DNA from: an uncultured Clostridia bacterium
Lineage (GTDB): Bacteria; Bacillota; Clostridia; Christensenellales; UBA3700
NCBI GenBank assembly: GCA_947037025.1
Contig: CAMQSU010000002.1
Span: 1-64,000, forward strand
Direction: 5' to 3'
DNA length: 64,000 nucleotides
Shown here: positions 19,176-41,738 of the stretch, piece after piece
How positions within the stretch are numbered: position 1 is the first letter of the stretch
Layout of the letters: every line of letters begins with the position of its first letter
Notes under the pieces: generated by a model
Database searches by the model: none
The model's input: only the letters and a program-made list of their open reading frames with translations
What the model was told of the DNA's origin: nothing
Made by a program: the position numbers and the translations under genes

Positions 19176-19592
19176 AGTGCTCAAAATAGTATAATTCAAT
19201 ATATTATGTGTTTTTGTTAGCGTTTTTATAATGCATATAAACATGTTAAATGACAAAGTAATGGTAAATATTGTCATAAAACATTAAGCAGTGAGATTTC
19301 TAATATATAATATACATAAGGTATTAAGCGGTTATATGTATTAGTTTGCATAGGGTTGAAGGCTGCAGGTAGGTGCATAGTGCGTAGTATTTTGTAAAAT
19401 GTTATTTATTGAATAAATTCAATAAATAACTAGTTTTTAGAAATAATATTTCATAAACTGAATAAATATGACATATTTCGACAAAAATTACCGCTAAATG
19501 CACCGATTTTATATTGCTTATGTTGACTTTTAGTTGAAATAAGCAATATAATTTAGTATCAAATCAAAAATAATAAAATCATTGGAGGATAT
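19176..19592 (+). other. Left boundary region of the virion cluster, with a perfect 30-bp palindrome
   Basis: About 415 bases without a gene. GTTATTTATTGAAT (19401-19414) is the exact reverse complement of 19417-19430, separated by AA. No direct repeat pairing this region with the right end at about 31.5-33.1 kb was found by eye, so attachment sites are not shown. Confidence 0.6.
19509..19552 (+). promoter_or_regulatory. Promoter embedded in a 13-bp dyad (operator-like)
   Basis: TTATATTGCTTAT (19509-19521) and ATAAGCAATATAA (19539-19551) are perfect inverted repeats 17 bases apart. TTGACT (19523-19528) lies between the arms, and TATAAT (19547-19552), 18 bases on, overlaps the right arm. A dimeric regulator bound here would block the promoter of the sigma-like gene. 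Confidence 0.65.
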
Positions 19593-20165
19593 ATGGATAA
19601 GTATTTATGGCAAAAAACATTGTTAGAGCTATATGGGGGATATAAAACATGTATTGCAACTTGCGACAATAAATTAACAAGATTGGTTAGAAATGCTTTT
19701 GGTAATAGCAATTCTACTTTTGACCAACTTGACGATATGCGTGTAGTTGTTCTTAGAAAAAAACACTGTCAATTTGCAAAGGCGATTATAGAAAAGTCAA
19801 TCAATAATATAAAACCAGCAGAGCAAAGTGTGCTTTACTGGAGGTATATGAGAGGTACGCAGTTTCAAGATATAGCAGATAAGCTGAACTTGCCAATTAG
19901 GCAAGTATTTAGAAGATATGACAAAGAATTGGCTTTTTTTGCATCAAGACTTGCTGTTGAAGGATATAGTACGGAGCGTATAGAAGCTGAATTTGGTAGT
20001 GATGATTATTTTAATATTGCCTACGAAAAGGTTTGTCTAAAGAGAGCAAATGTAGCGAAGAAACCTATTGTATCGTGTTTAATATCTCTAGAAAATGCTA
20101 GTGATAGTATTATTAAAAAGAATAGAAATAGAATTAGCAGTGACAATATTCTACTGGATATATAG
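19593..20165 (+). CDS. Sigma-70 region-4-like/HTH regulator of the virion cluster
   Basis: 190 residues. The centre reads IKPAEQSVLYWRYMRGTQFQDIADKLNLPIRQVFRRYDKELAF (residues about 75-117), which has the layout of sigma-70 region 4: helix, ALRYxxG-like turn, DIAxKLxLP helix-turn-helix, recognition helix. No sigma region 2 is evident, so it resembles small phage late-gene activators more than a complete sigma factor. Good ribosome binding site (TTGGAGGA). It is the first gene of the cluster and has its own operator-like promoter. The HTH is a confident reading, the late-activator role an inference. Confidence 0.6.
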   Translation: MDKYLWQKTLLELYGGYKTCIATCDNKLTRLVRNAFGNSNSTFDQLDDMRVVVLRKKHCQFAKAIIEKSINNIKPAEQSVLYWRYMRGTQFQDIADKLNLPIRQVFRRYDKELAFFASRLAVEGYSTERIEAEFGSDDYFNIAYEKVCLKRANVAKKPIVSCLISLENASDSIIKKNRNRISSDNILLDI

Positions 20166-20173
20166 TCGGCAAT

Positions 20174-20968
20174 TTATACTTCATAGAAGTCATCTCTTGA
20201 TGGCTTCTTTTTGCCCGTCGGCTTATATATTAGGAATACTATTAATACAGCAAGCAAACATAAAAGTGTTATTAAAACTATTCTTACTACATTTGCATTG
20301 TCGACTTCTGGCACTGGAACATCTGGATTTAGGTCTGCGTCTGGTAGTATAGGTGACATATCAGGGTCTATCGGGTTTGGGTTTTTATCTACAAACACTG
20401 TGGGGGTATACTCGGCTGTGCTTACAAATCCAATACGCGGCAAATCTTCTACAGTTCTTACAAACATATAATCAGTGATTTCCGCATAGGCTACAAATTT
20501 TAACTTAATTTCGGTGCTAATAGGTCCGCCAGTTTTATCGTATTCATATAGCTTTGTATATATTCCATTAGAGGATAAGCCTGTTTTAGAGGATAAACTT
20601 TCATTAAATATAAAGTGTGGATTGGTAGTGCTAGAAATAGTTTTTTTGCTCAAAGATGAGCTGTCGACTTTGCCTTCTACACCGTTATAAGTTACATATT
20701 TATAAATTACTCCATCTTTTTCCATGTCAGGTTTATCAGTCGATTTTACGTAAAATGTGTCGGGGATTTTAATTTCACCTTCTATGCCTTCAGTAGTAAT
20801 TTCCATTACCGCTGGTTGCTTTACAAGATAATATCCTTCAGTTTCTGCGAAGCAAACATCGATATTAAACTGAATTAATATAATGCTAATTATTAGCATC
20901 GCTATTATGAATCCGGCGCTTATTTGTGGTTTGCTTGCTTTTAATAGTTTGTTGCTTAGTGTTATCAT
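20174..20968 (-). CDS. Secreted, C-terminally anchored surface protein with SH3-like segments
   Basis: 264 residues: a signal or anchor segment (about 18-40, ending CFAETEG), two beta-rich stretches resembling bacterial SH3 modules (about 43-110 and 130-190; TFYVKSTDKPD, IYTKLYEYDKTGGP), a Pro/Asp-rich spacer (195-222), a TM helix (about 226-247) and a short basic cytoplasmic tail ending DDFYEV. The same order (signal, extracellular part, SH3-like modules, TM, short tail) occurs in the 834-residue protein at 50180-52684. It is convergent with the sigma-like gene (eight-base gap) and on the opposite strand from the virion genes, so it may be a cargo gene. Function unknown. Confidence 0.6.
   Translation of the reverse strand: MITLSNKLLKASKPQISAGFIIAMLIISIILIQFNIDVCFAETEGYYLVKQPAVMEITTEGIEGEIKIPDTFYVKSTDKPDMEKDGVIYKYVTYNGVEGKVDSSSLSKKTISSTTNPHFIFNESLSSKTGLSSNGIYTKLYEYDKTGGPISTEIKLKFVAYAEITDYMFVRTVEDLPRIGFVSTAEYTPTVFVDKNPNPIDPDMSPILPDADLNPDVPVPEVDNANVVRIVLITLLCLLAVLIVFLIYKPTGKKKPSRDDFYEV
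20186..20212 (+). terminator. Terminator of the regulator gene, located inside the opposing gene
   Basis: GAAGTCATC (20186-20194) pairs with GATGGCTTC (20199-20207) with one wobble around TCTT, then five Ts. On the other strand these bases encode the C-terminal residues of the reverse gene. Confidence 0.7.
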
Positions 20969-21184
20969 AATTCTCCTGTTTTTATATCGTTAGTATATAT
21001 TAATATATCAAGTTGGGCAGATATTTGCCTTCCAATTCATGTAGTTAGATTTGCTATTATTAAGTTTTTTGTCATAACCATATTGCTATTAGCTAAAGTT
21101 GTGGGAAAATGATTGTATCAGCAGCATTATCAATATTTGAGATGGTGCTGTATATTTAAAATAATTTTTGTGGGGGTGTTTGCC

Positions 21185-22606
21185 GTGTCTAAGGTCATAT
21201 TGCATAAGCTAATTAAACTGGAAAAAGAACAGACAAGGCGTGCTAGCATTAACAAATTGCTTACTTACAATACCGGCGATATTGTGCATGATAAACAGCT
21301 TGCTTTTCATAAATGCAATAAGCGTAATCGTTGGGTGTTTGGCGGAAATCGGAGTGGTAAAACTGAATGTGGCGCTGTGGAAGTTGTCTGGTGGGCTAGG
21401 GGAAATCATCCTTATAGAGAAAACCGATCAAATACCTGTGGCTGGGTTGTTTCATTATCTTATGAGGTGCAGCGCGATGTTGCCCAAGCTAAGATTTTGA
21501 ATTATCTCAATCCTGAGTGGATTAGTGATATAGTAATGCAGCAAGGTCGAAAAGGTGCACCTGAGTATGGAATAATTGACCATATTGTCATTAAAAATAT
21601 TTATGGTGGACTTAGTAAAATAGGATTTAAAAGCTGCGATCAAGGTAGAGAAAAGTTTCAAGGTGCATCGCTTGACTATGTTTGGTTTGATGAAGAGCCG
21701 CCATTTGATATTTATGAGGAATGTAGAATGCGTGTGCTTGATAGGGCTGGCGATGTTTGGGGGACGATGACTCCGCTTAAGGGTTTGACATGGGTATATG
21801 ATGAAATTTATCTAAACCGAACGGAAAATCCTGAAGTTTGGCATATCCATATAGAGTGGGCGGATAATCCTTATCTAGATAAAAAAGAGGTTAGTTTGTT
21901 AACTTCTACAATGAGTGGAGAGTCAGTTGATGCTAGAAGGTTTGGGCATTTTCAGTGTGATGTTGGGCTTGTTTATCCGGAATTTGATATGACAGTTCAC
22001 GTAGTTGAACCGTTTTCAGTCCCGTATGAGTGGCAAGATAATATCAGTATTGACCCCGGACTTAACAATCCGCTAGCGTGCTTGTTTTTTGCAGTTGATT
22101 ATGATGGTAATATTTATGTAGTCGGCGAACATTACGAGGCGGGGCGTGATATTGATTATCATTCAGCGAAAATATTTGACCTTGCAGAGTCGCTAGGCTG
22201 GCATAGAGATAATCGAGGTAGGCTAATGGCGATAATCGATAGTGCAGCAACGCAGCATACTCTTGCTTCGGCTAAAAGTGTTGCTGAGCTGTTTTATGAT
22301 AAAGGCATCGTTGTTAATACTAATGTGAATAAAGATATGTTTAGTGGTATTGCTAAAATGAAAGAATATTTGAAAGCAAGGCCGCAGCGAGTTTTTATAT
22401 TCAAAAATTGCAGTAATCTAATTAGAGAGTTAAAATCTTATTGGTGGTCGAAGGGAGATAATCCGAGAAAGGTTGATGATCACACTTTGGATGCAATGCG
22501 TTATTATGTAATGACTAAGCCAAGCGTAGCAGAGGGCAAAATTCGTGAGGTTAGCGAAATTGAAAAAGATAAAGTGCGACTAATGCGTAAGCAGCGTGCA
22601 AGATAA
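21185..22606 (+). CDS. Phage terminase large subunit (TerL)
   Basis: 473 residues from GTG 21185, eight bases after GGGGG; the open frame upstream to 21113 has no ribosome binding site. ATPase domain: Walker A FGGNRSGKT near residue 50, Walker B LDYVWFDEEPP near 165 with the catalytic Glu pair, and the coupling motif TPLKG near 196. RNase-H-like nuclease domain: SIDPGLNNPLACLFF near 285 and DHTLDAMRYYVM near the C-terminus carry the acidic metal-binding residues. All motor and nuclease motifs look intact. It drives DNA into the prohead through the portal encoded 1.1 kb downstream. First gene of the structural operon. Confidence 0.93.
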   Translation: MSKVILHKLIKLEKEQTRRASINKLLTYNTGDIVHDKQLAFHKCNKRNRWVFGGNRSGKTECGAVEVVWWARGNHPYRENRSNTCGWVVSLSYEVQRDVAQAKILNYLNPEWISDIVMQQGRKGAPEYGIIDHIVIKNIYGGLSKIGFKSCDQGREKFQGASLDYVWFDEEPPFDIYEECRMRVLDRAGDVWGTMTPLKGLTWVYDEIYLNRTENPEVWHIHIEWADNPYLDKKEVSLLTSTMSGESVDARRFGHFQCDVGLVYPEFDMTVHVVEPFSVPYEWQDNISIDPGLNNPLACLFFAVDYDGNIYVVGEHYEAGRDIDYHSAKIFDLAESLGWHRDNRGRLMAIIDSAATQHTLASAKSVAELFYDKGIVVNTNVNKDMFSGIAKMKEYLKARPQRVFIFKNCSNLIRELKSYWWSKGDNPRKVDDHTLDAMRYYVMTKPSVAEGKIREVSEIEKDKVRLMRKQRAR

Positions 22607-22663
22607 TCAAAATATAAAATCAAGAAATTTTAGCATCGTTTATAGGGGGTGTGATTAGTATAA

Positions 22664-23059
22664 ATGGCGAATAATATAATACAAAAGAGTGAAATTAAAA
22701 GTGCTGATAAGGTAGCAAATACTAAAAAAATCACTAAAAAGGTTAAAGTGGTAAATGCAGGAAGGCAGCGAGAAAATGCTAAAGTCGATAGAGATATTGT
22801 ACTTAATACACTTTATAAAAAGGGTGTAGGATACAATACTAAAGAGATTGTTGAGGAGTATGCAAGTGATGAAAAAGGCGGCGAAATGATTAAGCGGAAA
22901 GTAACGAAAAAGCGAGTTCCGCCTGATATATCTGCGTTGAAAACATACCTTGAATATACTAAGGTTGAAAATGAATTTGATAGCATGACAGATACACAAT
23001 TAGAGATAGAGAAAACTAGATTACTAAAACTGCTAAAGGCAGAGGAGGAAAACAAATGA
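22664..23059 (+). CDS. Candidate terminase small subunit (TerS C-terminal-like)
   Basis: 131 residues, strongly basic N-terminus. The second half has the order GVGYNTKEIVEEY, KRKVTKKRVPPDISALKTYL, then SMTDTQLEIEKTRLLKLLK. I recall similar strings in the C-terminal half of small terminase subunits of Bacillota phages, where GY-x-EEY, K-x-VPPD-x-xA and a terminal helix recur. The N-terminal DNA-binding HTH of such proteins is not evident, so this could be a shortened TerS or another head-assembly protein. It overlaps the next gene by four bases (ATGA). Confidence 0.45.
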   Translation: MANNIIQKSEIKSADKVANTKKITKKVKVVNAGRQRENAKVDRDIVLNTLYKKGVGYNTKEIVEEYASDEKGGEMIKRKVTKKRVPPDISALKTYLEYTKVENEFDSMTDTQLEIEKTRLLKLLKAEEENK

Positions 23060-23280
23060 AACTAGAAAAAGTGACTAATAAAGTAAGGTGCGACTTCGGT
23101 TTATGTAGGAAGGACGCGGCTTTTGTTGCAACCGATGATGGTGTAATGCCGCGTAGGAGAATATATTTATGTGCCGATTGCGTAAATGATATTTATAAAT
23201 TGATTGGTGGAGAAATTGTACCTAAAAGCCCGATTAATGTTATTAGCCGTGCAGAAAAAAGAAGAGGAGAGACGCTATGA
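23056..23280 (+). CDS. Small zinc-ribbon-like protein
   Basis: 74 residues with CDFGLC (residues 13-18) and LCADC (about 40-44), two Cys pairs suitable for one zinc ion. Overlaps of four bases with the genes on both sides (ATGA) place it in a tightly coupled terminase-portal string. No family is recognised. Similar tiny zinc proteins are common between terminase and portal genes in phages. Confidence 0.65.
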   Translation: MKLEKVTNKVRCDFGLCRKDAAFVATDDGVMPRRRIYLCADCVNDIYKLIGGEIVPKSPINVISRAEKRRGETL

Positions 23281-25151
23281 AAAATACGGAGTATGTAGAA
23301 GATATTGTAGCAAATCTTTTGCATGAGTTTAGCGAGCTATCAGAGGCAAGGCGACCTATTGAGGCGCAGTGGCGACTTAATATGAACTTTATGAAAGGTA
23401 ATCAATATTGTGAAATTAGTCCGATTGGAGATGTTGAGGATTACGGCAAACAGTACTTCTGGCAGGAGCGAGAAGTCTTTAATCATATCGCCCCAATCAT
23501 TGAAACTAGGCTTGCTAAACTTGGTAGGGTTAAGGCGACAATTAGTGTTAGACCGTATAGTTCTGATGATGCTGATGTCAATGTTGCTAAACTCTCAACT
23601 GGTGTTCTTAGAACAATTAGCGAGGAAAATAATATCGGTGAGCTGATAAATAATAGCAATATTTGGTCGGAAATATGCGGTAGTGTTTTCTATAAAGTCG
23701 TATGGGATGAGGATAAAGGCGTTACTATCGGGCAAAATAAAAGCAAGAAAATAATCAAAGAAGGGGATGTAAATCTTATTGTTTGTCCCCCTCATGAAAT
23801 TTTTCCTGATAAGCTATCAGCTAGTAGTATTGATGAATGCAAGTTTTTAATCCATGCAAAAATATACTCTGTTGAGGATGTGAAGGAAATGTTTGGTATT
23901 GATGTTGACGGTCATGCTTATGATGTATTCTCTATTGATTCTGTTACTAGTGGTGGCGGTCTTGGGTACAGTGCAAGCACTCAACGAATGTCGCAGGTTA
24001 GCCGAGATAATTCTGTATTGGTTCTTGAAAAGTTTGAGCGTCCTACTAATGATTACCCTCAAGGTAGACATGTTTTAGTGGCGGGTGATAAGCTAGTTAG
24101 TGATGGTGAACTGCCGTATGTTACGGAAAAAGATGGTGGAAAAGGCTTGCCATTTGCAAGGAAAGTAGCACTTGATGATATTACTAATTTTTATGGTCAG
24201 AGCGTTATTGAAAGGATAATTCCCCTTCAAAGAGCATACAACGGAGTAAAGAATAAAAAGCATGAATTTATGAATAGAATTGCTATGGGAGTGCTTGCAA
24301 TAGAGGACGGTTCTGTAGATACTGATAACTTAGAAGAAGAAGGATTATCACCCGGCAAAGTGCTTATTTATAGGCAAGGTTGTGCCCCTCCACGTATGCT
24401 GAATATGGGGTCAGTTCCTAATGATTTTCATCAAGAAGAAATAAGACTAGAGTCTGAATTTGTAAGGATATCAGGCGTTTCAGAGTTTATGAGAAATTCA
24501 TCATTGCCGCAAAATGTAACTAGCGGTGTTGCAATTAGTATGATACAAGAGCAAGATGATACAAGGCTTTCAATGTCTGCTGAATCTATAAGAAGTGCAG
24601 TCAAAAGAGTTGGTCAATTGATACTTAGGCTATATAAACAATTTGCAAATAATAACAGGCTAAAGAGAGTTGCCGGCGATAATGGCGATGTTCAAGTAAT
24701 TTATTTTAAGGGATCTGATTTAGCATCAGATGACTTAGTTTTTGATACGGATAATGAGCTAAATGAAACGCCAGCAAGTCGCAGAAGTATGGTATACGAG
24801 CTAATTCGCATGGGAATGTTTCGTGATGATGATGGCAAGATGGACGATAGAACGAGAGTGAAATTGCTTGATATGCTTGGCTTTGGAAACTGGGAAAGTG
24901 CTAGAGATATTGACGAGTGCCATATGATTCGTGCTGAGCGTGAAAATATAGATATTCGTGAAAAAGATATCATGCCAATAGAGTATGACAATCATGAATT
25001 GCATATTGCAGAGCATATAAAAGCTGTGATTTGCGAGAAGTCAGACCTTATGTATATTGAAAGGCTTGACGGTCATATTAAAGCACATCAAATGATGAGT
25101 TTTCATGTTGACAGTATCGCAGCGAGTGTAGATGCTAGTGCTCAAATGTAA
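23277..25151 (+). CDS. Phage portal protein, P22-like
   Basis: 624 residues, a length typical of podovirus (P22-type) portals. An N-terminal stretch AQWRLNMNFMKGNQYC and FNHIAPIIETRLAKLGRVKATISVRP opens the family. The middle shows GSVFYKVVWDE, NLIVCPPHEIFPDKLS, NFYGQSVIERIIPLQRAYNGVKNKKHEFMNR and VTSGVAISMIQEQDDTRLSMS, the region of the portal stem. It forms the dodecameric ring at one vertex for DNA entry and exit. ATGA overlap with the preceding gene. No truncation is visible. Confidence 0.85.
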   Translation: MKNTEYVEDIVANLLHEFSELSEARRPIEAQWRLNMNFMKGNQYCEISPIGDVEDYGKQYFWQEREVFNHIAPIIETRLAKLGRVKATISVRPYSSDDADVNVAKLSTGVLRTISEENNIGELINNSNIWSEICGSVFYKVVWDEDKGVTIGQNKSKKIIKEGDVNLIVCPPHEIFPDKLSASSIDECKFLIHAKIYSVEDVKEMFGIDVDGHAYDVFSIDSVTSGGGLGYSASTQRMSQVSRDNSVLVLEKFERPTNDYPQGRHVLVAGDKLVSDGELPYVTEKDGGKGLPFARKVALDDITNFYGQSVIERIIPLQRAYNGVKNKKHEFMNRIAMGVLAIEDGSVDTDNLEEEGLSPGKVLIYRQGCAPPRMLNMGSVPNDFHQEEIRLESEFVRISGVSEFMRNSSLPQNVTSGVAISMIQEQDDTRLSMSAESIRSAVKRVGQLILRLYKQFANNNRLKRVAGDNGDVQVIYFKGSDLASDDLVFDTDNELNETPASRRSMVYELIRMGMFRDDDGKMDDRTRVKLLDMLGFGNWESARDIDECHMIRAERENIDIREKDIMPIEYDNHELHIAEHIKAVICEKSDLMYIERLDGHIKAHQMMSFHVDSIAASVDASAQM

Positions 25152-25430
25152 TACAATCTGCAAAGATATAAAGTATAATAACAATTGATGCATTATAAAT
25201 CATGGTAATAAAATTAAATAATATTGATATTTACATATAATTTAGTCTGTAAATCAAATATGATATCATAATATCTGTCTATAATTACCATGTTATGTAA
25301 TTCCAAAATATAATATAATAGCTATGTGATTAGTGTGAATATTAAATTATTTATGCAAGCTAATCACTAAATTAAAAAGTATTGTGGCAGGCTATGCAGT
25401 CTGTCATTTTATATAAAACGGAGGTCACAA
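25152..25430 (+). promoter_or_regulatory. Structured leader between portal and capsid genes
   Basis: 279 bases without a gene inside an otherwise packed operon. Contains CATGGTAAT/ATTACCATG (25201-25209 with 25284-25292), GTGATTAG/CTAATCAC around 25327-25372, and a possible promoter TTACCA-N18-TATAAT (25285-25314). The scaffold gene follows with a strong ribosome binding site (CGGAGGT). A separate high-level capsid promoter would make sense but is inferred. Confidence 0.4.
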
Positions 25431-26033
25431 ATGCAAGAGAATCACCTAGAACAAGTAGTAGACTGTTCACCAATTATTGGCGGCGAGGCGGAGAGCGTAA
25501 AGCTAGAAACTGCTAAGGCTAAATCAATTATGGACAATGAATCAGGCGCTACCTCTTATGGTAAATTTAAGTCAGCGGAATGCTTATTGAATGCATATAA
25601 GCAGTTAGAAAAAGAGTTTACGAAAAAAAGCCAAACGCTTAGGACGTTCCAAGAGTCGCAAATTAATGTTGACGACACTATCAGTGGCATGATAAGCGTA
25701 AACCCTCAATTATCTAACTATGCAGACGAGCTAAAGGCGGCAATAACATCGGGCAGTAACTCTAGTATTAAACTAGCAGAGTGTCTGAATGGCAGAGTCA
25801 CTGAACCTTGCCATATTATAAATGATAAAAAATTTCTAGATAAATATGTGTACAGCAATGCTGATATAAGGGGCAAGATTATTGCCGAATATCTAGATAA
25901 TTTACAAGACAGACGGTCGCCAATGACCATTAATGGTCGTGGTAATGCATATGTATCCCCAGCGTACAAACCGCATTCGCTTGATGAAGCGAGCAAGCTG
26001 GCAAAAAAATATATAGAGAATAGGAGAATTTAA
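25431..26033 (+). CDS. Probable capsid scaffolding protein
   Basis: 200 residues, hydrophilic, helix-rich with a coiled-coil-like centre (about residues 45-75, YKQLEKEFTKKSQTLRTFQE) and a basic C-terminal end. Its place directly before the major capsid gene, its size and its composition fit a scaffold that is expelled before DNA packaging. No motif proves it. It is three bases ahead of the capsid gene, so the two are co-translated. Confidence 0.6.
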   Translation: MQENHLEQVVDCSPIIGGEAESVKLETAKAKSIMDNESGATSYGKFKSAECLLNAYKQLEKEFTKKSQTLRTFQESQINVDDTISGMISVNPQLSNYADELKAAITSGSNSSIKLAECLNGRVTEPCHIINDKKFLDKYVYSNADIRGKIIAEYLDNLQDRRSPMTINGRGNAYVSPAYKPHSLDEASKLAKKYIENRRI

Positions 26034-26036
26034 TTT

Positions 26037-27197
26037 ATGGTTAATTTACAAACTGCTGATAAAGCATTAAAAAGCGTCTACTTAGGCGTAGTTTCAGAGC
26101 AACTAAATATGTCATGTAATCCACTTCTTACAAAGATAGAGCAAACATCTTCAGATGTTTGGGGAAAGGAGATTATTAAGGTAGTATCATACGGCATTAA
26201 TGGCGGTATCGGTGCTGGCGATGAGAGCGGAGCACTGCCAATGGCTGCAGGTAACAACTATGCTCAGTTCAAGTTAGAGCTTAAAAATTTATATGGAAGT
26301 ATTGAGATAAGTGATAAAGCAATCCGTGCATCGCAAAGCAATGCTGGCGCATTCGTAAACTTGTTAAATGCGGAGATGGAAGGACTTCTAAAAGCATCAA
26401 GATATAATCTTGGTAGAATGCTTTATGGCGATGGTACTGGTAAGCTTACTACTATTTCAGCGGTAACTTCTGGTGCTACAAATTCATTTAATGTAGCTAG
26501 CACAAAATGCCTCGCTATTGGTATGGTGATAGATATTATCGCCGTTGATGGTACAAAGAAAGTGACACAAGCAAGAATTCTTGATATCAATATATCGACT
26601 ATGCTTGTTAAGCTTGATAAGCAAATTACTGGTGTTGCTGTTGCAGATTGCATTTATATCCAGAACTCTCAAGGTTATGAGTTGACAGGTTTGGGTGCGA
26701 TTTTTGGCAAGGGTGATATTTACGGTCTTAGCCGCACGGATAACTCTTGGCTTAATCCTTTTGAGACTAAACATGCAGCACCGCTTACAATGAGTGCTAT
26801 GCAAGAAGCTATTGATCATGTTGATGAGGCAAGTGGTAGTGAAATAGATTTTATTACTTGTTCGTATGATGTTAAGAAAGCGTATATCAACAATTTATCT
26901 GATAACAGAATGAATATCGATTATATGAATCTTGATGGCGGCTTTAAAGCTTTAAGCTACAATGGCATACCTGTTATGAGTGATAAATTTATTGCCGAAG
27001 GCGAGATGTATCTGCTTAATTCTAAAGACTTCAAAATGCACCAACTTTGTGATTGGAGATGGCTTGAGGGTGAGGCAGGAAATGTTATCAAACAGAAACA
27101 TGGCAGTCCTACATATACTGCAACTCTTGTTAAATATGCAGATATCGTTTGTGATAGACCTTGTGGTCAAGCTAAAATAACAGGCATCACGGGCTAA
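26037..27197 (+). CDS. Major capsid protein
   Basis: 386 residues. Begins MVNLQTADKALKSVYLGVVS, then has long beta/alpha-mixed sequence: VVSYGINGGIGAGDESGALP, FKLELKNLYGSIEISDKAI, a helical SRYNLGRMLYGDGTG (spine-helix-like) and a C-terminal GIPVMSDKFIAEGEMYLLNS followed by HQLCDWRW. This is the usual course of HK97-fold capsid proteins in Bacillota phages annotated simply as major capsid protein. Position after the scaffold and before the connectors supports it. No N-terminal protease gene is seen, so maturation cleavage is not expected. Confidence 0.8.
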   Translation: MVNLQTADKALKSVYLGVVSEQLNMSCNPLLTKIEQTSSDVWGKEIIKVVSYGINGGIGAGDESGALPMAAGNNYAQFKLELKNLYGSIEISDKAIRASQSNAGAFVNLLNAEMEGLLKASRYNLGRMLYGDGTGKLTTISAVTSGATNSFNVASTKCLAIGMVIDIIAVDGTKKVTQARILDINISTMLVKLDKQITGVAVADCIYIQNSQGYELTGLGAIFGKGDIYGLSRTDNSWLNPFETKHAAPLTMSAMQEAIDHVDEASGSEIDFITCSYDVKKAYINNLSDNRMNIDYMNLDGGFKALSYNGIPVMSDKFIAEGEMYLLNSKDFKMHQLCDWRWLEGEAGNVIKQKHGSPTYTATLVKYADIVCDRPCGQAKITGITG

Positions 27198-27202
27198 TAA
27201 TT

Positions 27203-27571
27203 ATGAGAGGATTAGTGCTGATAAGCGAAAATGTTCATGATATTCCGCAGCGGATATGCGAGATTGATGCAAGGTATATGGTGTACTATAACAAGATAAA
27301 ATCGAGATATGAGATACATGCACGGGGGCATTCCCCAAGCTTGCAGCTCGTGTTGCCGTATAGACAATTGGATATAAGATCGGTCGATTATGTTAATATG
27401 ACTAGGGTCGATAGGCAGCTAGATAATATTGGTAATATTGATGCTGAGAATGAGCAAATGATGTCAGAAAAAGTTAGTGCTATCCTCGATAAAATGCAGT
27501 ATAAGACGAAAAGTCTTATGAGTTATATTAGCAGCGGGGGTGAGGACATTCCCGCGTATGAGGAGCTTTAA
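27203..27571 (+). CDS. Small head-region protein of unknown function
   Basis: 122 residues. Contains IPQRICEIDARYMVYYNKIKSRYEIH and SLQLVLPYRQLDIRSVDY, a pattern I have seen beside capsid genes in Bacillota phages; role not known. A charged helical C-terminal half (NAENEQMMSEKVSAILDKM-like) may be a coiled coil. It starts five bases after the capsid stop and ends one base before the next start. Confidence 0.55.
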   Translation: MRGLVLISENVHDIPQRICEIDARYMVYYNKIKSRYEIHARGHSPSLQLVLPYRQLDIRSVDYVNMTRVDRQLDNIGNIDAENEQMMSEKVSAILDKMQYKTKSLMSYISSGGEDIPAYEEL

Positions 27572-27572
27572 T

Positions 27573-28115
27573 ATGAGAGTGGATAGCGTAGTAAAACAAG
27601 TATTAGTTAGACTAGGCATTGACGCTAGATATAACCTCGGGCTTTTGCCGACGGATGATGAGCTGATTATTACTATTGTTAGATGTTTAAATATGGTAGT
27701 CGGCGAGATTGCAAGTGACTATTTAGAAGTTAGAAAAGTTGAGGATGTTGAGGTGATAAACAAAATCATCGACTACGACAATTTTTCCGAAAGACTTATA
27801 AATGTTAAAAAAGTTGAGCAATCTGGCGGACGAAATATTAATTATAGGCTGTATCCAGACCATTTAATGGTTGAGTCGGATGGCGTGGTTAGTGTAGAGT
27901 ATTGTTATTTGCCTTGCGAAGTTGAGCTTGATGACGAGATAATGCTGTCGCCAAGAATCACGGAGCTACTACTTATAAATGGCGTGCTAGGAGAGTACTG
28001 CATGATAAATGGCAGATATGAAGATAGCATGCTTTATGATAAAAGATATAGGGAAATGATTAAGTTAGCCGTAATGCCTACTAAGGAAATAAGGTTAAAG
28101 GCGAGGAGGTGGTAA
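27573..28115 (+). CDS. Head-tail adaptor, P22 gp4-like
   Basis: 180 residues from ATG 27573 (MRVDSVVKQVLVRLGI); an in-frame TTG-type opening at 27540 lies inside the previous gene. The helical N-terminal part (LGIDARYNLGLLPTDDELIITIVRCLNMVVGEIASDY) and a beta insertion resemble head-completion proteins that attach under the portal. P22 gp4 is 166 residues. The order portal, scaffold, capsid, adaptor, hub is that of P22. Assignment is by size, fold impression and position. Confidence 0.55.
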   Translation: MRVDSVVKQVLVRLGIDARYNLGLLPTDDELIITIVRCLNMVVGEIASDYLEVRKVEDVEVINKIIDYDNFSERLINVKKVEQSGGRNINYRLYPDHLMVESDGVVSVEYCYLPCEVELDDEIMLSPRITELLLINGVLGEYCMINGRYEDSMLYDKRYREMIKLAVMPTKEIRLKARRW

Positions 28116-28116
28116 T

Positions 28117-29517
28117 ATGTCAAAACGCATAAGTTACATAAGACCGCCAAAGATATATAGATCATTGCTTGCAATATTTGACGGGGTCAGTGAAGAAGTT
28201 TATTCGACTACATTGCCTGTCAAAATAGCAGAGATACAAGAAAATTTATCTGAACAGAATGGTGCATTAGTACAGACAATGAAGCTAAATAAAGTGCAAG
28301 TCAAAAAGTTTAATACTGCAAGTCATAAGGCTTACAGGCTGCTTGCGGTGCATTATAAAAAAAATCAAGAAGATATGCCGCCTACTATGCTTTTAGGTAG
28401 TAGTGACGGTACTGTTTTAGTTAAAACTGTTAATAGCGAAGTTGTAATGACTCAGGATGCAATTGTTTTTCCAACTAGCAATTATATGAATTTTCAGCTT
28501 GAAGGAGTAAGTTATATTATTATGCCGGATAGTGAAAATAATCTAATTAGTTATGATGGAGAAACATTTGAATATCATTCAATAGGGCATAGTTTTGAGC
28601 ATGTTATAAATCATGATATGCGTGCATTTGCAAGTAAAAAAGGTGAAAGTGTACTGTACTTTAGTGATGACTTTGACCCTTATAATTGGAAGACTAGCAT
28701 TGAGGAAGGAGGATACATAAATATGTCAGGAGAAAATGGTGACATCACTGATATTTTGAGTATTAACCAATCACTTATTGTAGTCCAAGAGCGTGGGATG
28801 AGCAAAGTTTCGGCATTTACTGATCAGTCAGAGTTTATTGTAAAATGCATTAATATCGAAAATGATATTATACCAAATAGCGTTGTCAGTGCAGTTGATA
28901 GATTGATTTATTGCTCTAGTATGGGCATTGGATTGTTCAACGGCTATGAGAGTAAAATATATTGTCGTGAACTTGCAAGTAAACTGAAAGGCAAAAAAAT
29001 CAATGGTACATATTTAGATGGTAAATGCTATTTTAATCTTTATGATGATAGTGCAACAGGTGGCGTTGAAATATTAGTTATTGACATTAGTACAATGAAA
29101 TATCATTTTATTGCTCATGAAACAGGCAATAATATTGCAACAATCAGAAACGGTGCAAATAAAAATATAATCACTTATTATAGCAGCGATGACATTTTGC
29201 AAGAAGATAAAAACTATATATATTACTTATCATCGAATACCGCACCTAGTAATATGCTGTGGCGTAGTGGTGATATTGATTTTGGAAAATCAGGCGTATA
29301 TAAGGTAATTAAAAACATTATTTTTGGCGGTGAAAGCAAAATTCTTTTTCGCATAATATGTGATGGCGAAAGCTATTCATACAATGTGGGCGAGGAGCGT
29401 AGAGTTTTAGTGAACTTACGTGGTAGAGAGTTTCAGTTTGAAATGAAACCACAAGGTCATAAGATTAAAGTGCCGTCACCGATTATAGAATATCAGCTGA
29501 TTGAAACAATCCTGTAA
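28117..29517 (+). CDS. Tail hub/packaged-DNA stabilisation protein, P22 gp10-like
   Basis: 466 residues, almost the length of P22 gp10 (472). Nearly all-beta with recurring short blades (MLLGSSDGTVLVKTV, NLISYDGETFEYHS, KGESVLYFSDDFDPYNWKTS, IVVQERGMSKVSAF), suggesting the beta-propeller of the podovirus hub that plugs the portal after packaging. It begins one base after the adaptor gene. No tail-fibre-binding segment is evident. Function by analogy of length, fold and order. Confidence 0.6.
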   Translation: MSKRISYIRPPKIYRSLLAIFDGVSEEVYSTTLPVKIAEIQENLSEQNGALVQTMKLNKVQVKKFNTASHKAYRLLAVHYKKNQEDMPPTMLLGSSDGTVLVKTVNSEVVMTQDAIVFPTSNYMNFQLEGVSYIIMPDSENNLISYDGETFEYHSIGHSFEHVINHDMRAFASKKGESVLYFSDDFDPYNWKTSIEEGGYINMSGENGDITDILSINQSLIVVQERGMSKVSAFTDQSEFIVKCINIENDIIPNSVVSAVDRLIYCSSMGIGLFNGYESKIYCRELASKLKGKKINGTYLDGKCYFNLYDDSATGGVEILVIDISTMKYHFIAHETGNNIATIRNGANKNIITYYSSDDILQEDKNYIYYLSSNTAPSNMLWRSGDIDFGKSGVYKVIKNIIFGGESKILFRIICDGESYSYNVGEERRVLVNLRGREFQFEMKPQGHKIKVPSPIIEYQLIETIL

Positions 29518-29525
29518 TTTGCATA

Positions 29526-29591
29526 GTGATTATATTGCTTGCTTTAGTAGTGGTAATTATGGTGTGGCTTGCGGCTAATATAGGTGATTGA
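29526..29591 (+). CDS. Possible 21-residue transmembrane micropeptide
   Basis: GTG 29526 opens a frame encoding 21 residues, MIILLALVVVIMVWLAANIGD, with TGA at 29589-29591 overlapping the ribosome binding site of the next gene. It is a single membrane helix. No Shine-Dalgarno precedes it, so translation would depend on coupling to the gene that ends at 29517. Too short to prove, but the composition is not what random AT-rich DNA gives. Confidence 0.3.
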   Translation: MIILLALVVVIMVWLAANIGD

Positions 29592-29599
29592 GGAGTAGT

Positions 29600-29971
29600 A
29601 TGAGTGAATTTAATAAGCTTAGATATAGGGTAGATGATATAGAACTAGATGTGGAGCGGATTAAAAATTTGCTAACTAGAACGAAATGCCTTGACATGAA
29701 TGTAGGCAGCGATGGCATGATCAATTGCAGCTGCGCATGCAGCGTGTCTAGCGGTAGTGTATCATATGAGATTTTAGCGGATGAGGGCAGTAATGTTAAA
29801 ATATTGCTTTCTACAAATGGTGAAGTCGTTATAGAAAAATTAGGAAAAATGGCTAGTGGTGAGATGCTAGTTAAGAGTAGAAAAATAAATAGTATACAGC
29901 TTAGTATTACAGGGTCAGGGCTTAGCATGGCTAGGCTCAGGCTGACTGGTGCAGGGCTGAAAATAACTTAG
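29600..29971 (+). CDS. Small virion-region protein with coiled-coil N-terminus
   Basis: 123 residues from ATG 29600, with GAGGAG just ahead; the upstream TTG 29588 overlaps that site. The N-terminal helix (FNKLRYRVDDIELDVERIKNLL) has heptad character, then a Cys/Ser patch (CSCACSVSSGS) and a beta-rich end. Could be a tail or minor head component. Not recognised. Confidence 0.5.
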   Translation: MSEFNKLRYRVDDIELDVERIKNLLTRTKCLDMNVGSDGMINCSCACSVSSGSVSYEILADEGSNVKILLSTNGEVVIEKLGKMASGEMLVKSRKINSIQLSITGSGLSMARLRLTGAGLKIT

Positions 29972-29985
29972 GAGGTAGAGTATAA

Positions 29986-30948
29986 ATGGGAATATTTGAT
30001 TCAATAGGCGATTGGTTTAGTGGAGGAAGTAGCTCGGAAGATTATAAGGAAGATCAGTTAAATATGAATAAAGAGATTGCTGCTCAAGAGGCTGAAGAAC
30101 GAGCTAGAATAGAGAGAGAAAAGCAAGCCTATGTTGACATGTTTGAGCCTGATGATAAGGAGTTTATATATAAACAATTTGAAGGACTTACTGAAGAGGA
30201 AATGAAGAAAATTGCAGAGAGTACATATAATGACTTTTATAATGAGGGAATTAATTCCGTAGAGTCAGAGTACAATAATGCAATTAGTGACGCGGATAAA
30301 GATATAATTTCAGCTGAGCAAGAGTCAAAGGATAATAGCGACACTGTGAAGGATAATCTTGAAGATGACACTAAGGATTTTAGAGATACTGCATACAAGA
30401 GCGGCATACTTGACTCATCAATAGTCGGCAGCAAAAACACGCAACTTGATGGGCTTGCTGATGAGGATCTTGACGATATAATAAAGGCGCTAGAGGCAGA
30501 TTTATTAGAAGCTAACGAGTATAAAAAGAAGGCAGCGCAAGATAAAAAATCGAATGCAGATGACTTGCTAAGTGATTATAATAACAAAGTCAACAAACAC
30601 GTAAACGGGCAGTCAAGTGCACAAGATAATGAGCAAAAGAAAATAGATTCTCACAATAGTTCTGTTAAGAGTGAAGAGAAAAAATTTGAACAGTATAAGA
30701 AAGATTTAGCTATTGAAAAAAGTCTTGAGTATGACTCAGAGCTTGATAAGAAGTATAAAGAAGAATCTAGATACGGCTATACTGGAGACCGCAAAGCACA
30801 TTATGACAAAAGGGTGGCAACAGCTAAAGCATTTTATGATAAGTACGACAAAAAAGACGTGCTTGACATGATAAAATCAAATCCGCAATTGCCTGAACTG
30901 TTAGGTTATGAATATTCAAAATTCATAGATAGTTATAGAAATGCCTAG
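29986..30948 (+). CDS. Helical, highly charged virion protein (ejection or needle candidate)
   Basis: 320 residues. Starts MGIFDSIGDWFSGGSSSE, an amphipathic Gly/Ser-rich start often seen in internal or ejected virion proteins. The rest is Lys/Glu/Asp/Gln-rich and predicted coiled coil through most of residues 20-300. No enzymatic motif. Placement after the hub gene and before the holins is where P22-like phages keep needle or ejection genes. It overlaps the holin gene by eight bases. Function unproved. Confidence 0.5.
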   Translation: MGIFDSIGDWFSGGSSSEDYKEDQLNMNKEIAAQEAEERARIEREKQAYVDMFEPDDKEFIYKQFEGLTEEEMKKIAESTYNDFYNEGINSVESEYNNAISDADKDIISAEQESKDNSDTVKDNLEDDTKDFRDTAYKSGILDSSIVGSKNTQLDGLADEDLDDIIKALEADLLEANEYKKKAAQDKKSNADDLLSDYNNKVNKHVNGQSSAQDNEQKKIDSHNSSVKSEEKKFEQYKKDLAIEKSLEYDSELDKKYKEESRYGYTGDRKAHYDKRVATAKAFYDKYDKKDVLDMIKSNPQLPELLGYEYSKFIDSYRNA

Positions 30949-31171
30949 TGAGTTTATTGCAATAATTGCAAAGAGCGGTATATTTGCAATAATGTTCGTA
31001 TCATTATTGTTTTATATTTTATCTGATGCTAAAAAGCGTGAGACGAAGTATCAAGATTTAATAACTAAGCTTGCGGATGAGCTTGTTATTGTTAAAGATA
31101 TTGATACTAATGTTAAAGAAATTAATAGCAAGATTGTCTTGCCTATTAGGTTATACAAGGAGCGATTATGA
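30941..31171 (+). CDS. BhlA/UviB-type holin-like protein
   Basis: 76 residues: one N-terminal membrane helix (KSGIFAIMFVSLLFYILSDA, about 11-30) followed directly by a charged coiled-coil tail (KKRETKYQDLITKLADEL). This matches the BhlA/UviB pattern (xGIWAxLFVxLLFYVL then KREExYQxxI). Such proteins permeabilise the membrane in Bacillus and are linked to bacteriocin release in Clostridium. Overlaps both neighbours. Confidence 0.75.
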   Translation: MPSEFIAIIAKSGIFAIMFVSLLFYILSDAKKRETKYQDLITKLADELVIVKDIDTNVKEINSKIVLPIRLYKERL

Positions 31172-31368
31172 AAGAAAAATTAAGTAATTATGGACTGTGG
31201 GTTAGTTTAGCAGGGTGCGTAATCATGATATTGCAAGCGTGCGGATTGAAGTTTGATGTTCCGTATGTAAATGAGATTATAACAGCAGTATTGGGAGTGT
31301 TTGTAACTCTTGGAATTGTTAGCAACCCAAGTAGCGGAAATGGCTACAATGATAGCAATAAAGATTAA
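31168..31368 (+). CDS. Phage holin, phi-LC3-like
   Basis: 66 residues with two hydrophobic segments (about 7-25 and 34-52) and the characteristic exit GIVSNPSSGNGYNDSNKD, equivalent to the GIVxDPTTxGxxDS tail of phi-LC3-family holins. It overlaps the BhlA-like gene by four bases. In complete phages an endolysin gene comes next; here the operon ends with a terminator and none follows. Confidence 0.75.
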   Translation: MKEKLSNYGLWVSLAGCVIMILQACGLKFDVPYVNEIITAVLGVFVTLGIVSNPSSGNGYNDSNKD

Positions 31369-31440
31369 GTAATAATAAAATAATATTATATTATATATTG
31401 ATAAATTTTACCATAAATTATAGTATAAATTATTATTAAT

Positions 31441-31485
31441 ATAGCCGGGCAAGTTATTAAAAAATAACTAGCTTGGCTATTTTTT
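31441..31485 (+). terminator. Terminator closing the virion operon
   Basis: 31441-31458 pairs with 31463-31480 through 18 positions (one mismatch, two G-U) around four As, followed by Ts. Confidence 0.85.
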
Positions 31486-31588: not shown

Positions 31589-32446
31589 ATGTCAATAAAT
31601 GATAAATTTAAATTAAGTTATAGTGAGCAGTTTTTAATTGATGGTATTGAAGAGCAGGATATTAATCTTGATCTTGATGATGCCGTTGTCGTAGGTGGTT
31701 CGCTTACTGGTCAGGTTACTGATAATGATGGGTTTCCAGTTGAGGATGTAACTGTTAAAATATTTGATGCTGCAGGTAAACCGTTTAGACATACTTTAAC
31801 TGATAGTAATGGTAACTATTCATTTGATAACTTACCACAAGGTAATTATACAGTTACTGCTGCAAAAAAGAAATATATATTATCGGTTGGTAACAACATC
31901 GTATTAGGTAATAACGAGCTTAAAATTTTAGACCTTAAAATATTAGAAGATACTACTAAAGATTTAACAGCTATTGCAGGTGTAGTATTTGATAATAATA
32001 GCAAAAATGTTATTAGCGATGCTTTTGTAGTTGTACAAGATAGTGAAGGAGTTACTGTTGCAACAACAGTAACTGCAGCTGATGGCGAGTATGTATTTTA
32101 TGACTTACCAGCTAATGAATACAAAGTATTTGCAACAAAAGACGGATATATTCCTAATTCAGCGGTAGAAGTATCAACTAGAGAAAATGCACTTGTTAAT
32201 GCCTTTATAAAGCTTTCTAATGATCCAAAGACAAATAGCGGTACTATCAGTGGTATTGTTAAAAATAATAATAACATTGTTCCTAATTGTTTTGTTGGAT
32301 TATATGACATAATAAGCAACGAAGGTATTGATGTTGAGCGTTTAGTTAGTGTTACTAAAACTAACAGTAATGGCGCTTATATGTTTGGCAAAGTCGGTTC
32401 TGGCAATTACAAAGTAAAAGCAAAATTAAACGGTAGAAATATCTAA
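31589..32446 (+). CDS. Protein with three carboxypeptidase-regulatory-like (beta-sandwich) repeats
   Basis: 285 residues without a signal peptide. After an N-terminal segment (KLSYSEQFLIDGIEEQDINL) come three domains of about 80 residues, each of the form GxVxDxxGxPVxxVxVxIxD...T(D/N)xxGxYxFxxLPxGxYxVxAxKxGY: about 36-110, 127-205 and 220-285. That is the CarboxypepD_reg/SpaA-like fold used in surface stalks and some phage decoration or fibre proteins. It follows the virion terminator by about 100 bases, so it may be outside the phage operon. Ribosome binding site AAGGAGG. It shares a DGIEE motif with the next gene. Confidence 0.7.
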   Translation: MSINDKFKLSYSEQFLIDGIEEQDINLDLDDAVVVGGSLTGQVTDNDGFPVEDVTVKIFDAAGKPFRHTLTDSNGNYSFDNLPQGNYTVTAAKKKYILSVGNNIVLGNNELKILDLKILEDTTKDLTAIAGVVFDNNSKNVISDAFVVVQDSEGVTVATTVTAADGEYVFYDLPANEYKVFATKDGYIPNSAVEVSTRENALVNAFIKLSNDPKTNSGTISGIVKNNNNIVPNCFVGLYDIISNEGIDVERLVSVTKTNSNGAYMFGKVGSGNYKVKAKLNGRNI

Positions 32447-32447
32447 T

Positions 32448-33056
32448 ATGATTCAATCAAGTGACAAAATGCGACTTGATGGAATAGAAGAGTTAGAGCA
32501 TTTCTTTGACTTTTACTATAATAACAATCATATTATAATAAGCGTTCTGCACAAGGATTTTCCTTGTGCAGAATGTTGCCGTTGCAAAAAGTGCTTTTGT
32601 GATTATAACAACTATAATTTCAATAATGATCAGACTATATATTGCAGTGCTAATCATATAAATAACTGCTTAAATAAAAATGAAAATTTGCAAAGAATAA
32701 CGTGCAATAATCCTTGCAATAACTCGTGTAAAAATGTTTGCAGAAAACGCAAAAAAGCTTGCAATAATTGCTATGAAAATTATTCTGTTTTTCCTAATAT
32801 AAATACTGACTATTTTTGCAATAATAATTGTAAAAATAAGCGTAATTTCTGCCGAAAAAATGCTATGGTATATATTGAAGATATTATAAATAAAACATTA
32901 ATATGCAAGCGGATAAAAATCAATTATCTAGCTGAAGTTATTACTGATTTGCCAGAGTCTTATTACAAGATATGGTGCGAAAGTGATAATCTTATATCGG
33001 AAGCAATGTATATATCTATACCTTGCAAAGATAATAAGCTGAACATTTATATATAG
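32448..33056 (+). CDS. Cys/Asn-rich protein of unknown function
   Basis: 202 residues, one base after the previous gene and so probably co-transcribed. Residues about 40-145 contain over 25 cysteines in short motifs (CAECCRCKKCFC, CNNPCNNSCKNVC, CNNCYENY) mixed with Asn, like spore-coat, metal-binding or disulfide-matrix proteins. The N-terminus KMRLDGIEELEHFFDF echoes FLIDGIEEQDINLD of the preceding protein, suggesting a common targeting or docking motif. The C-terminal 60 residues look like an ordinary small domain. No signal peptide. Real but unassigned. Confidence 0.55.
   Translation: MIQSSDKMRLDGIEELEHFFDFYYNNNHIIISVLHKDFPCAECCRCKKCFCDYNNYNFNNDQTIYCSANHINNCLNKNENLQRITCNNPCNNSCKNVCRKRKKACNNCYENYSVFPNINTDYFCNNNCKNKRNFCRKNAMVYIEDIINKTLICKRIKINYLAEVITDLPESYYKIWCESDNLISEAMYISIPCKDNKLNIYI
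32545..32573 (+). repeat. Perfect 13-bp hairpin inside the Cys-rich gene
   Basis: TTCTGCACAAGGA (32545-32557) is the exact reverse complement of 32561-32573, with a TTT loop. It lies about 100 bases into the coding sequence and has no T run, so it is not a simple terminator. Confidence 0.7.
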
Positions 33057-33080
33057 TAAATATAATAAACTAATTTGCAA

Positions 33081-33109
33081 TTGACAGTAGTAAGTATATG
33101 TGTTATAAT
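33081..33109 (+). promoter_or_regulatory. Promoter of the BspA-like lipoprotein gene
   Basis: TTGACA (33081-33086), 17-base spacer, TATAAT (33104-33109); GAGGGG and the start codon follow about 45 bases later. Confidence 0.8.
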
Positions 33110-33156
33110 ATAATGGTAAATAATACTAAAATATTTTTCAAACGAGGGGATAAATA

Positions 33157-36057: not shown

Positions 36058-36104
36058 CAATTTCAGCGTCTAATAGGTATAATATAATCAAAAATAAAAA
36101 GTAG

Positions 36105-36500
36105 ATAATCTTCAATATCATTTTACTCGTATTAAGTCTTTCCTCATTTTTTACGTGCGTAGGATTGTACTTTGGCATGTATTTTGCTGACGAGCATTTG
36201 CAAGTTTAAGTAATTTTAGGTTGTGTGGCTATAGTGATTTTATGCACTTTAGTGCCATTCAGTATAAGAATGATTAGAAGTATGTATAATCGCAGAGATG
36301 CCTTGTTAAGGGGTGGACTTTCGGCAGTGCTACTAGTGAGTTTTATTCCTGTTATATGTTCTACCCAGTTTGCTAGTATTTTTCAATACACTATTCTAGG
36401 TGCTGTACTTATATCAATAATAATGATTTTATCACTTGACTTCGGGAAGGAATCTCATATTTATAAAACTGATGTGCATAATAGGCATGAAAGATTATAA
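36105..36500 (+). pseudogene. Membrane protein gene interrupted by a TAA, or a shorter GTG-started protein
   Basis: One frame from 36105 reads as hydrophobic protein sequence (SFFTCVGLYFGMYFADEHLQ), meets TAA at 36207-36209, then continues (VILGCVAIVILCTLVPFS) to the stop before 36500. The part after the stop can start at GTG 36225, giving 91 residues with three membrane helices, but without a ribosome binding site. Hydrophobic sequence on both sides of the stop in the same frame suggests a broken gene. Family unknown. Confidence 0.4.
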
Positions 36501-36517
36501 ACTAAATTTTGTGAATT

Positions 36518-36548
36518 AAAAAACACCCCTTATTGAAGGGGTGTTTTT
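36518..36548 (+). terminator. Terminator, probably bidirectional
   Basis: AAAAACACCCCTT and AAGGGGTGTTTTT (36519-36548) form a perfect stem around a short loop. It lies between the small membrane gene and the end of the acetyltransferase gene on the other strand. Confidence 0.85.
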
Positions 36549-36644
36549 GTATGTTGATTTATAATTTAAGTTGTAGTTTTAATTTATAATTTGATATAAA
36601 TCAATTACTGCTCAGATTATATGAAAGCATAACATCAGCAAACA

Positions 36645-37274
36645 TCAAAATTTATATATCATAGATTGAATATCATTTATAAGTTTGCAAGTATGGTATC
36701 CATCAGCAACTGCATGATTAATTTGCACTGTAAATGGCAGGTTGTAATCATTATCGAATTTACCCCAAGTAATTATCGGAGCAAGAAAATTTGCTGAGTA
36801 TGGCACATTCATATTCAAAGCGGAATACTTTAACCATGGAGTACATGATAAATGAAAACAATTTTCAGGTATCTCACCTAAAATAAAGCCTTTAGTATCT
36901 TTATGTTTTTCCATATCGCCTTTAACATTTTTATACATTGCTAAAAAGTTTTTATCAAACTTGCTAGAGCAGCATGAAAAAGTTTTGTCATCGCTATGGA
37001 AAATGCAGTAACTTGGATGAATAATATCATAATAGCCAAGCTCTTTATTTTCGTTAATTGCCATTTTAAATTCCTCGTTGTTATTTACAGCAAGGCTCAC
37101 TATGCATATTAGTGCAGGGTATAGTGATAACTTAGATTTAGATAAATAAGTATACAGATTTTTTATATTTATATCTGCCGTTATACTGTATGTGCAATGG
37201 TCGCTGTTAGCATAATGCTCATAATGATCGCACCTTGCATATGTTTTCATGTTAATAATATTTAATTTTTGCAT
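36645..37274 (-). CDS. Chloramphenicol acetyltransferase (CatA/type A-like)
   Basis: 209 residues, the normal length (about 207-220). The catalytic histidine motif is present as QINHAVADGYH near residue 186 (family HHAVxDGxH). Other matches are YPALICIVSLAVNNNEEF near 52, IHPSYCIFHSDDKTFSCC near 85, the substrate-Ser segment CFHLSCTPW near 137 and APIITWGKF near 164. It would transfer acetyl from acetyl-CoA to chloramphenicol, but divergence from clinical Cat proteins is considerable and some relatives act on other alcohols. It is encoded 50 bases after a DUF3592-type gene on the same strand. Confidence 0.8.
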   Translation of the reverse strand: MQKLNIINMKTYARCDHYEHYANSDHCTYSITADINIKNLYTYLSKSKLSLYPALICIVSLAVNNNEEFKMAINENKELGYYDIIHPSYCIFHSDDKTFSCCSSKFDKNFLAMYKNVKGDMEKHKDTKGFILGEIPENCFHLSCTPWLKYSALNMNVPYSANFLAPIITWGKFDNDYNLPFTVQINHAVADGYHTCKLINDIQSMIYKF

Positions 37275-37324
37275 TTGTTTTCCTTGTTATATCACTATAT
37301 CGAATATGCAATATTGCTTTTTGT

Positions 37325-38212: not shown

Positions 38213-38391
38213 AAGTTTCTCCTTAGTAGTGAAGTATTTAATATATAAATATATTTATGATTTGATATATTATAGCATGAATCACAAGTTATGTCAAATT
38301 GTTAGGTTTTGAATCATTTTCAAAAATTGATAAATTGCTATCATGTGGAATGTGCTTCAACTTAATTAATTTATCACCAGTACAAGCATAC

Positions 38392-38431
38392 AAAAATAGC
38401 TGCATCGCAAGTTAGCGGTGCAGCTATTTTA
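38392..38431 (-). terminator. Terminator of the GntR/ABC operon
   Basis: AAAAATAGCTGCATCGC (38392-38408) pairs with GCGGTGCAGCTATTTT (38415-38430), one wobble, six-base loop; on the minus strand it ends in a T run. Confidence 0.85.
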
Positions 38432-38448
38432 TATTAATTTATTTATAA

Positions 38449-38814: not shown

Positions 38815-38846
38815 TTATTATATCAATCCTTTTAGTGCCTCACTAA

Positions 38847-40449: not shown

Positions 40450-40463
40450 TATTGTTCCTCCTA

Positions 40464-40519
40464 TGTATACTGTGTATGTTATATATGTACAGTATACACT
40501 ACTTAATTGCATTTGTCAA
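40464..40519 (-). promoter_or_regulatory. Promoter with overlapping GntR-type operator
   Basis: Minus strand: TTGACA (40514-40519), 17-base spacer, TATACT (40491-40496). TGTATACTGT (40464-40473) and ACAGTATACA (40489-40498) form a perfect 10-bp inverted repeat, 15 bases apart, whose promoter-proximal arm contains the -10 box. Binding would block RNA polymerase. Confidence 0.8.
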
Positions 40520-40592
40520 TACAATTTTATATATTGTTATGATTCTGCAGCAAGCAATATTCATAAAATAAATTATGAGGTGAGTAACAAAA

Positions 40593-40624
40593 AAAAATGA
40601 CTGCTTGATAAAGCAGTCATTTTT
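40593..40624 (-). terminator. Terminator of the SDR gene
   Basis: AAAAATGACTGCTT (40593-40606) pairs perfectly with AAGCAGTCATTTTT (40611-40624) around GATA; flanking A and T runs make it work on either strand. Confidence 0.85.
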
Positions 40625-41697: not shown

Positions 41698-41738
41698 AAA
41701 TGTAGTTATCCAATTGAATTATTATAGGAGTTATTATC

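Follow-up and report, generated by a model that had tools for sequence, protein, structure and literature searches.

A conserved podovirus-type packaging and virion gene cluster of uncultured Clostridia, probably a host-domesticated element resembling gene transfer agents

The window analysed here, a 64,000-nucleotide stretch from an uncultured Clostridia bacterium (Christensenellales, UBA3700; contig CAMQSU010000002.1, positions 1 to 64,000 of the forward strand), carries a packaging and virion gene cluster at 19593-31368, all of it on the plus strand except for one minus-strand gene (20174-20968). The comparisons with related genomes indicate that this cluster is probably a host-domesticated podovirus, that is, an element like a gene transfer agent (GTA), which is vertically inherited in this order of Clostridia. 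Its gene content, its vertical descent, its fixed locus, selection on every gene tested and the absence of self-propagation genes from the cluster are established below.

Within the family, 30 of 35 genomes contain a single copy of the gene for the major capsid protein (MCP), which is missing only from genus g6; the identity of the protein is 75-85% in the genus of the window and ~54-63% in the family. Sampled evenly across the order, 235 of 396 genomes carry the capsid gene, almost always in single copy, and these represent 72 of 142 genera; in family f26 the large terminase gene, TerL, was found in 55 of 59 genomes. Gene order is conserved across ~33 loci. For 29 genomes, a tree of TerL, portal and MCP shares 20 of 26 splits with the rpoB tree, as compared to at most 3 under random relabelling and at most 13 under relabelling within genera, and for nine cluster genes the distances track those of rpoB (Mantel r 0.80-0.94; 0 of 1000 permutations as high). 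Pairwise ratios of nonsynonymous to synonymous substitution rates (dN/dS) are 0.02-0.36 in ten genes over the computable pairs, one zero-dN pair aside and pairs with saturated dS being given no ratio. TerL and portal lie at ~0.02-0.06, or ~0.02-0.11 with the small terminase TerS included, and the maximum of 0.36 belongs to the scaffold gene. Both the tree and the dN/dS statistics are based on homology-based gene calls. These comparisons show that the cluster is vertically inherited under purifying selection, rather than acquired by repeated infection.

The position of the cluster is likewise conserved, as a murG, parE, parC housekeeping neighbourhood is common to the cluster loci of five genera. 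Downstream of the cluster lie murG, a hydrolase gene and parE in genera g1, g2 and g4, and g4 has ileS, rlmI and rluD upstream; in g3 murG and parE are within ~16 kb of the cluster, and in g5 parE-parC is directly upstream and murC downstream. Genome G012 of genus g6, which has lost TerL and capsid, shows the order rlmI-rluD, an intact minus-strand membrane gene amid other genes, and hydrolase-parE-parC. This is the cluster's site devoid of particle genes, the membrane gene (L301, 8127-8909) being retained intact at the ancestral position.

Some lineages carry the cluster in two pieces. In six species of genus g31 (family f26), which has near complete, reduced genomes (0.8-1.2 Mb), the TerL and capsid genes sit 39-104 kb apart, at two intact loci. 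Where both sites were read, in four of these species, the regulator and TerL are at one site and TerS, portal, capsid, hub and holin at the other. The regulator remains beside TerL even when the cluster is split, and the membrane gene was recognised at the TerL site in three of these four. The cluster is unsplit in the other f26 genera, and in genus g89 of family f70 TerL is likewise separate from the scaffold-capsid block. A two-piece cluster cannot be inherited as one mobile phage unit, but is workable for a host-run system. At the split site, an ~800-residue surface protein, anchored in the membrane by its C-terminus, is encoded after TerL in three of the four genomes read (L305, L306, L307). 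Elsewhere, one genome (G182, locus L204, 8035-10367) has two capsid genes in tandem within an otherwise normal cluster, and in another (G057, L312, 1400-3600) a shortened TerL abuts the DUF7934 gene, as though the middle of the cluster were deleted; the latter is probably a decaying copy.

Family and fold searches identified a regulator, TerL, TerS, portal, HK97-fold capsid, tail hub, DUF7934 and holin in the cluster, while the names of the scaffold, connector and second holin rest on position or weak matches. The features are as follows.

19593..20165, plus strand: sigma-region-4-like transcription regulator (PHROG 36, 1.4e-7; same position in 25 loci)
20174..20968, minus strand: secreted single-pass membrane protein, divergent from TerL (minus strand at the same place in 24 of 24 loci with the gene)
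21113..22606, plus strand: large terminase TerL (Pfam Terminase_6N, 2.7e-11; Terminase_6C, 4.6e-7)
22664..23059, plus strand: small terminase TerS, with no recognisable N-terminal DNA-binding domain (PHROG 309, 3.4e-6)
23056..23280, plus strand: small protein encoded between the TerS and portal genes (conserved in 20 loci)
23277..25151, plus strand: portal protein, P22 type (PF16510, P22_portal, 7.7e-24; PHROG 156, 4.5e-39)
25431..26033, plus strand: probable scaffold protein (between portal and MCP in 26 loci)
26037..27197, plus strand: MCP, HK97 fold (PHROG 14242, 4.1e-50)
27203..27571, plus strand: connector-region protein, putative function from position (conserved in 22 loci)
27540..28115, plus strand: probable head-tail adaptor, preceding the hub (PHROG 2377 adaptor, best 1.7e-6)
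28117..29517, plus strand: tail hub (nozzle), beta-propeller with P22 gp10-like fold (AlphaFold2 pLDDT 83.5 and Foldseek)
29588..29971, plus strand: short variable protein downstream of the hub (each genus with its own version at this position)
29986..30948, plus strand: coiled-coil virion protein DUF7934 (PF25588, 3.3e-10; 27 loci)
30941..31171, plus strand: BhlA-type holin (PF10960, 1.9e-14)
31168..31368, plus strand: second small membrane protein, phage holin 1-like (PF04531, 0.0027; conserved in 22 loci)

All of these frames are open and most adjacent genes touch or overlap, giving a tight operon. An earlier sequence-only reading had described an intact virion and packaging cluster between host genes, with a TerL bearing all catalytic motifs and without genes for integrase, repressor, replication and endolysin. 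Each gene that it claimed is indeed present as an open frame, and family searches agree on the genes that are absent from the cluster. The TerL Walker A (GGNRSGKTE) and Walker B (FDEEP) motifs and the nuclease residues D314, D376, D456 and D460 show little or no variation among 17 relatives. The gene list of the sequence-only reading did not include the minus-strand membrane gene at 20174-20968. Of its two holins, the BhlA type is well matched, whereas the second falls under the Pfam cut-off, and its adaptor at 27540-28115 is weakly based, as PHROG 2377 was matched in just 2 of 17 relatives. The description of the cluster as P22-like holds only loosely: it fits the portal and tail hub, but among sequenced phages the closest are the Jasminevirus-type actinophages, at ~22-29% identity.

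The packaging and virion proteins show several further features of note. The annotated TTG start of TerL at 21113 is probably too early, as judged by the GTG at 21185, which agrees with relatives. PHROG 309 is matched by 16 of 18 relatives, and in the window protein the match is confined to residues 194-244 of the 319 in the profile; TerS is ~85-105 residues long in most relatives, and Pfam recognised no helix-turn-helix family across the 18, a missing profile match being no proof of absence. The MCP model (AlphaFold2 pLDDT 85.8) matches the Pa223, Mic1 and HK97 capsids in Foldseek. The best Foldseek matches of the hub are all tail hubs (Pa223, 1.9e-20; VP1, 1.7e-14; P22 gp10, 1e-13), and no contractile sheath was found; the hub is of the short-tailed type. 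The short variable protein at 29588..29971 is a candidate tail tip or receptor part.

The regulator at 19593..20165 is a probable dedicated activator of the cluster. The membrane protein contains a signal peptide, an SH3-like outer domain and a C-terminal transmembrane segment, and its gene is itself conserved together with the cluster; a viral-contig protein at the same position matches SH3_3 at 1.6e-5, below the Pfam cut-off. The gene is divergent from TerL and retained in G012 after loss of TerL and capsid; its product may act as a partner at the surface or in regulation. In the upstream alignment the sole signal was a likely -10 box, which in some genera precedes the minus-strand gene.

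Both flanks of the cluster consist of host genes. Upstream are a sugar-kinase-like gene and a flavin adenine dinucleotide (FAD) oxidase gene; downstream are leucine-rich repeat (LRR) and other surface proteins and then, from 42972 on, murG, hydrolase, parE and parC. In the window, the cluster and murG are separated by ~11 kb (31589-42900) that encode surface proteins (carboxypeptidase-regulatory repeats, BspA-type LRR) among others; the genus's two other genomes show no such separation. Family searches recognised no integration or replication genes in the cluster or its immediate flanks, and the integrase, repressor and replication genes of a temperate prophage were not recognised there. There is no tyrosine integrase within the window, the assembly (1.62 Mb, 73.6% complete) containing one tyrosine recombinase match on another contig. 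Neither tRNA genes nor Rfam families were found in the window.

The phages nearest to the cluster, Arthrobacter phage Jasmine and Microbacterium phage Shocker, are 22-29% identical in portal and MCP and carry TerL, portal, a scaffold-position gene (unnamed in both) and MCP in the order of the cluster. By contrast, their genomes are 45-47 kb with annotated endolysins in both, and Shocker has annotated DNA polymerase/helicase (replication) genes. When 20 outgroup loci from phages and prophages were searched with the profiles of TerS and the minus-strand gene, no match at 1e-3 was obtained. Viral contigs with layout read that exceed ~45% capsid identity mostly carry the same cluster, and related prophage-like modules with 31-37% capsid identity occur in other families; one viral contig, L137, in which an endolysin gene lies beside the cluster, was left out (TerL start missing, possible assembly join). 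In three viral contigs that carry the cluster (L124, 11700-20300; L105, 6600-15300; L140, 6000-12800), restriction-modification or other defence-type genes directly follow the capsid gene, in the place expected for the connector and hub genes.

The long intact inheritance of the cluster suggests that virus-like particles are made for the bacteria's own purposes, most likely for moving random host DNA between cells. Particle formation, random packaging, release with a hydrolase encoded elsewhere and DNA delivery would proceed as follows. The sigma-like gene would switch the operon on, after which capsid, scaffold and portal would assemble a small head. By analogy with the GTAs of Rhodobacter capsulatus (RcGTA) and Faecalibacterium (FpGTA), TerL and a TerS devoid of a sequence-specific DNA-binding part would fill this head with unselected host DNA, and the gp10-like hub would close the short tail. 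The holins, together with a host cell-wall hydrolase, would then release the particles, which would pass their DNA to relatives.

Several observations weigh against domestication as a GTA-like element. The capsid gene is patchy in the order, being absent from genus g6, family f27 (0 of 18 genomes) and many others, and in a single genome (L025; G021:C1:445895-447058) it contains one in-frame TGA. Open reading frames (ORFs) of 83-88 residues, unmatched by the TerS profile, follow TerL in two related prophage-like loci, suggesting that a short TerS may predate domestication. No endolysin or clear receptor-binding protein was found in the cluster, the rest of the genome not having been searched for either. 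Viral-contig relatives at 33% identity encode additional proteins of very large size, and these relatives may be genuine phages. Finally, for this organism neither a particle nor packaged DNA has been seen.

A domesticated particle put to another use, such as competitor killing (PBSX-like) or the protection or disposal of DNA, in which host DNA is packaged but perhaps not productively injected, is unlikely yet deserves weight: its vertical signal and selection would look identical, holins are present, no receptor-binding protein was recognised in the cluster, and the available text of PMC12946183 leaves this option open even for FpGTA. Yet TerL, portal and TerS are among the most constrained genes (dN/dS ~0.02-0.11), although a killer consisting purely of a tail could do without them, and the hub is of the short-tailed type with no contractile sheath found. 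The genes are of tailed-phage origin and prophage-like modules with 31-37% capsid identity exist in other families, as expected of an ordinary or defective prophage remnant that is merely old, but an element in single copy at the same locus, congruent with its hosts across genera and families, under strong purifying selection and with no integrase or replication genes recognised makes this explanation very improbable. The ~10-12 kb size of the cluster and its lack of replication genes would suit a phage satellite dependent on a helper. This, however, is extremely improbable, as the cluster encodes a complete terminase as well as a portal, capsid and tail hub of its own, is vertical and fixed in location, and contains no recognised integrase or capsid-size redirecting gene.

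The sequence-only reading had offered a decayed prophage, a satellite or a domesticated particle producer comparable to a GTA. Single-copy presence across the family, the conserved neighbourhood, congruence and purifying selection led us to reject the first two, and presence, locus, congruence and selection support the third. The check that it proposed, the same locus and purifying selection in relatives, revealed the shared neighbourhood of five genera and the dN/dS of 0.02-0.36; sporadic occurrence or absence in close relatives and attachment-site scars, which it had named as contrary signs, were also examined and did not refute the third option.

If the cluster is inherited order-wide, capsid-mediated gene exchange, or another particle use, would be a standing trait of uncultured gut Clostridia, and the cluster supplies defined genes for checking existing faecal particle sequencing. 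The available text of PMC12946183 reports three GTA-like packaging events in Christensenellaceae (HGM11616, QANA01) from human faeces; it describes a search for GTA genes in metagenome-assembled genomes of Onthomonas, Gemmiger and Faecalibacterium, and gives none for Christensenellaceae. It is only plausible that the present cluster is the source of these events. A fuller proposal, to which we give somewhat less than even weight, sees in the cluster a podovirus-type GTA that was domesticated independently and is order-wide in these uncultured gut Clostridia, equipped with a dedicated sigma-like activator and a conserved membrane protein at the surface. On this view it would also be the source of the faecal Christensenellaceae packaging (PMC12946183).

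The cluster shares with GTAs the head, packaging and tail genes of tailed phages, the lack of recognised integration and replication genes of its own, vertical co-evolution with the host at a fixed location and genes under selection (dN/dS 0.02-0.36). Another GTA trait is accessory genes at separate loci, to which the split loci of f26 genus g31 may be comparable. RcGTA is siphovirus-like, in contrast to the short-tailed cluster here, and the two are likened by features, not by protein comparison. These features are vertical inheritance (PMC11841831), a structural cluster and, putatively for the cluster here, a TerS without an N-terminal DNA-binding domain, the loss of which has been proposed as a mark of GTA-type TerS (PMC6854486). 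The only open-access literature found on Christensenellales with GTAs or domesticated prophages is PMC12946183, the available text of which describes FpGTA as a podovirus-like Gram-positive GTA with 8.4-8.9 kb of packaged DNA. FpGTA is the closest known system in kind, likened by that description and not by sequence: its ~10.5 kb operon encodes TerL, portal, scaffold, capsid and a TerS with no obvious DNA-binding domain, and it is near-ubiquitous in its genus and without replication genes (PMC12946183). By contrast, FpGTA belongs to another host lineage and has a second 5.5 kb operon with a receptor-binding protein and endolysin, while the present cluster, set against that description, spans much of an order and in some species is split into two loci.

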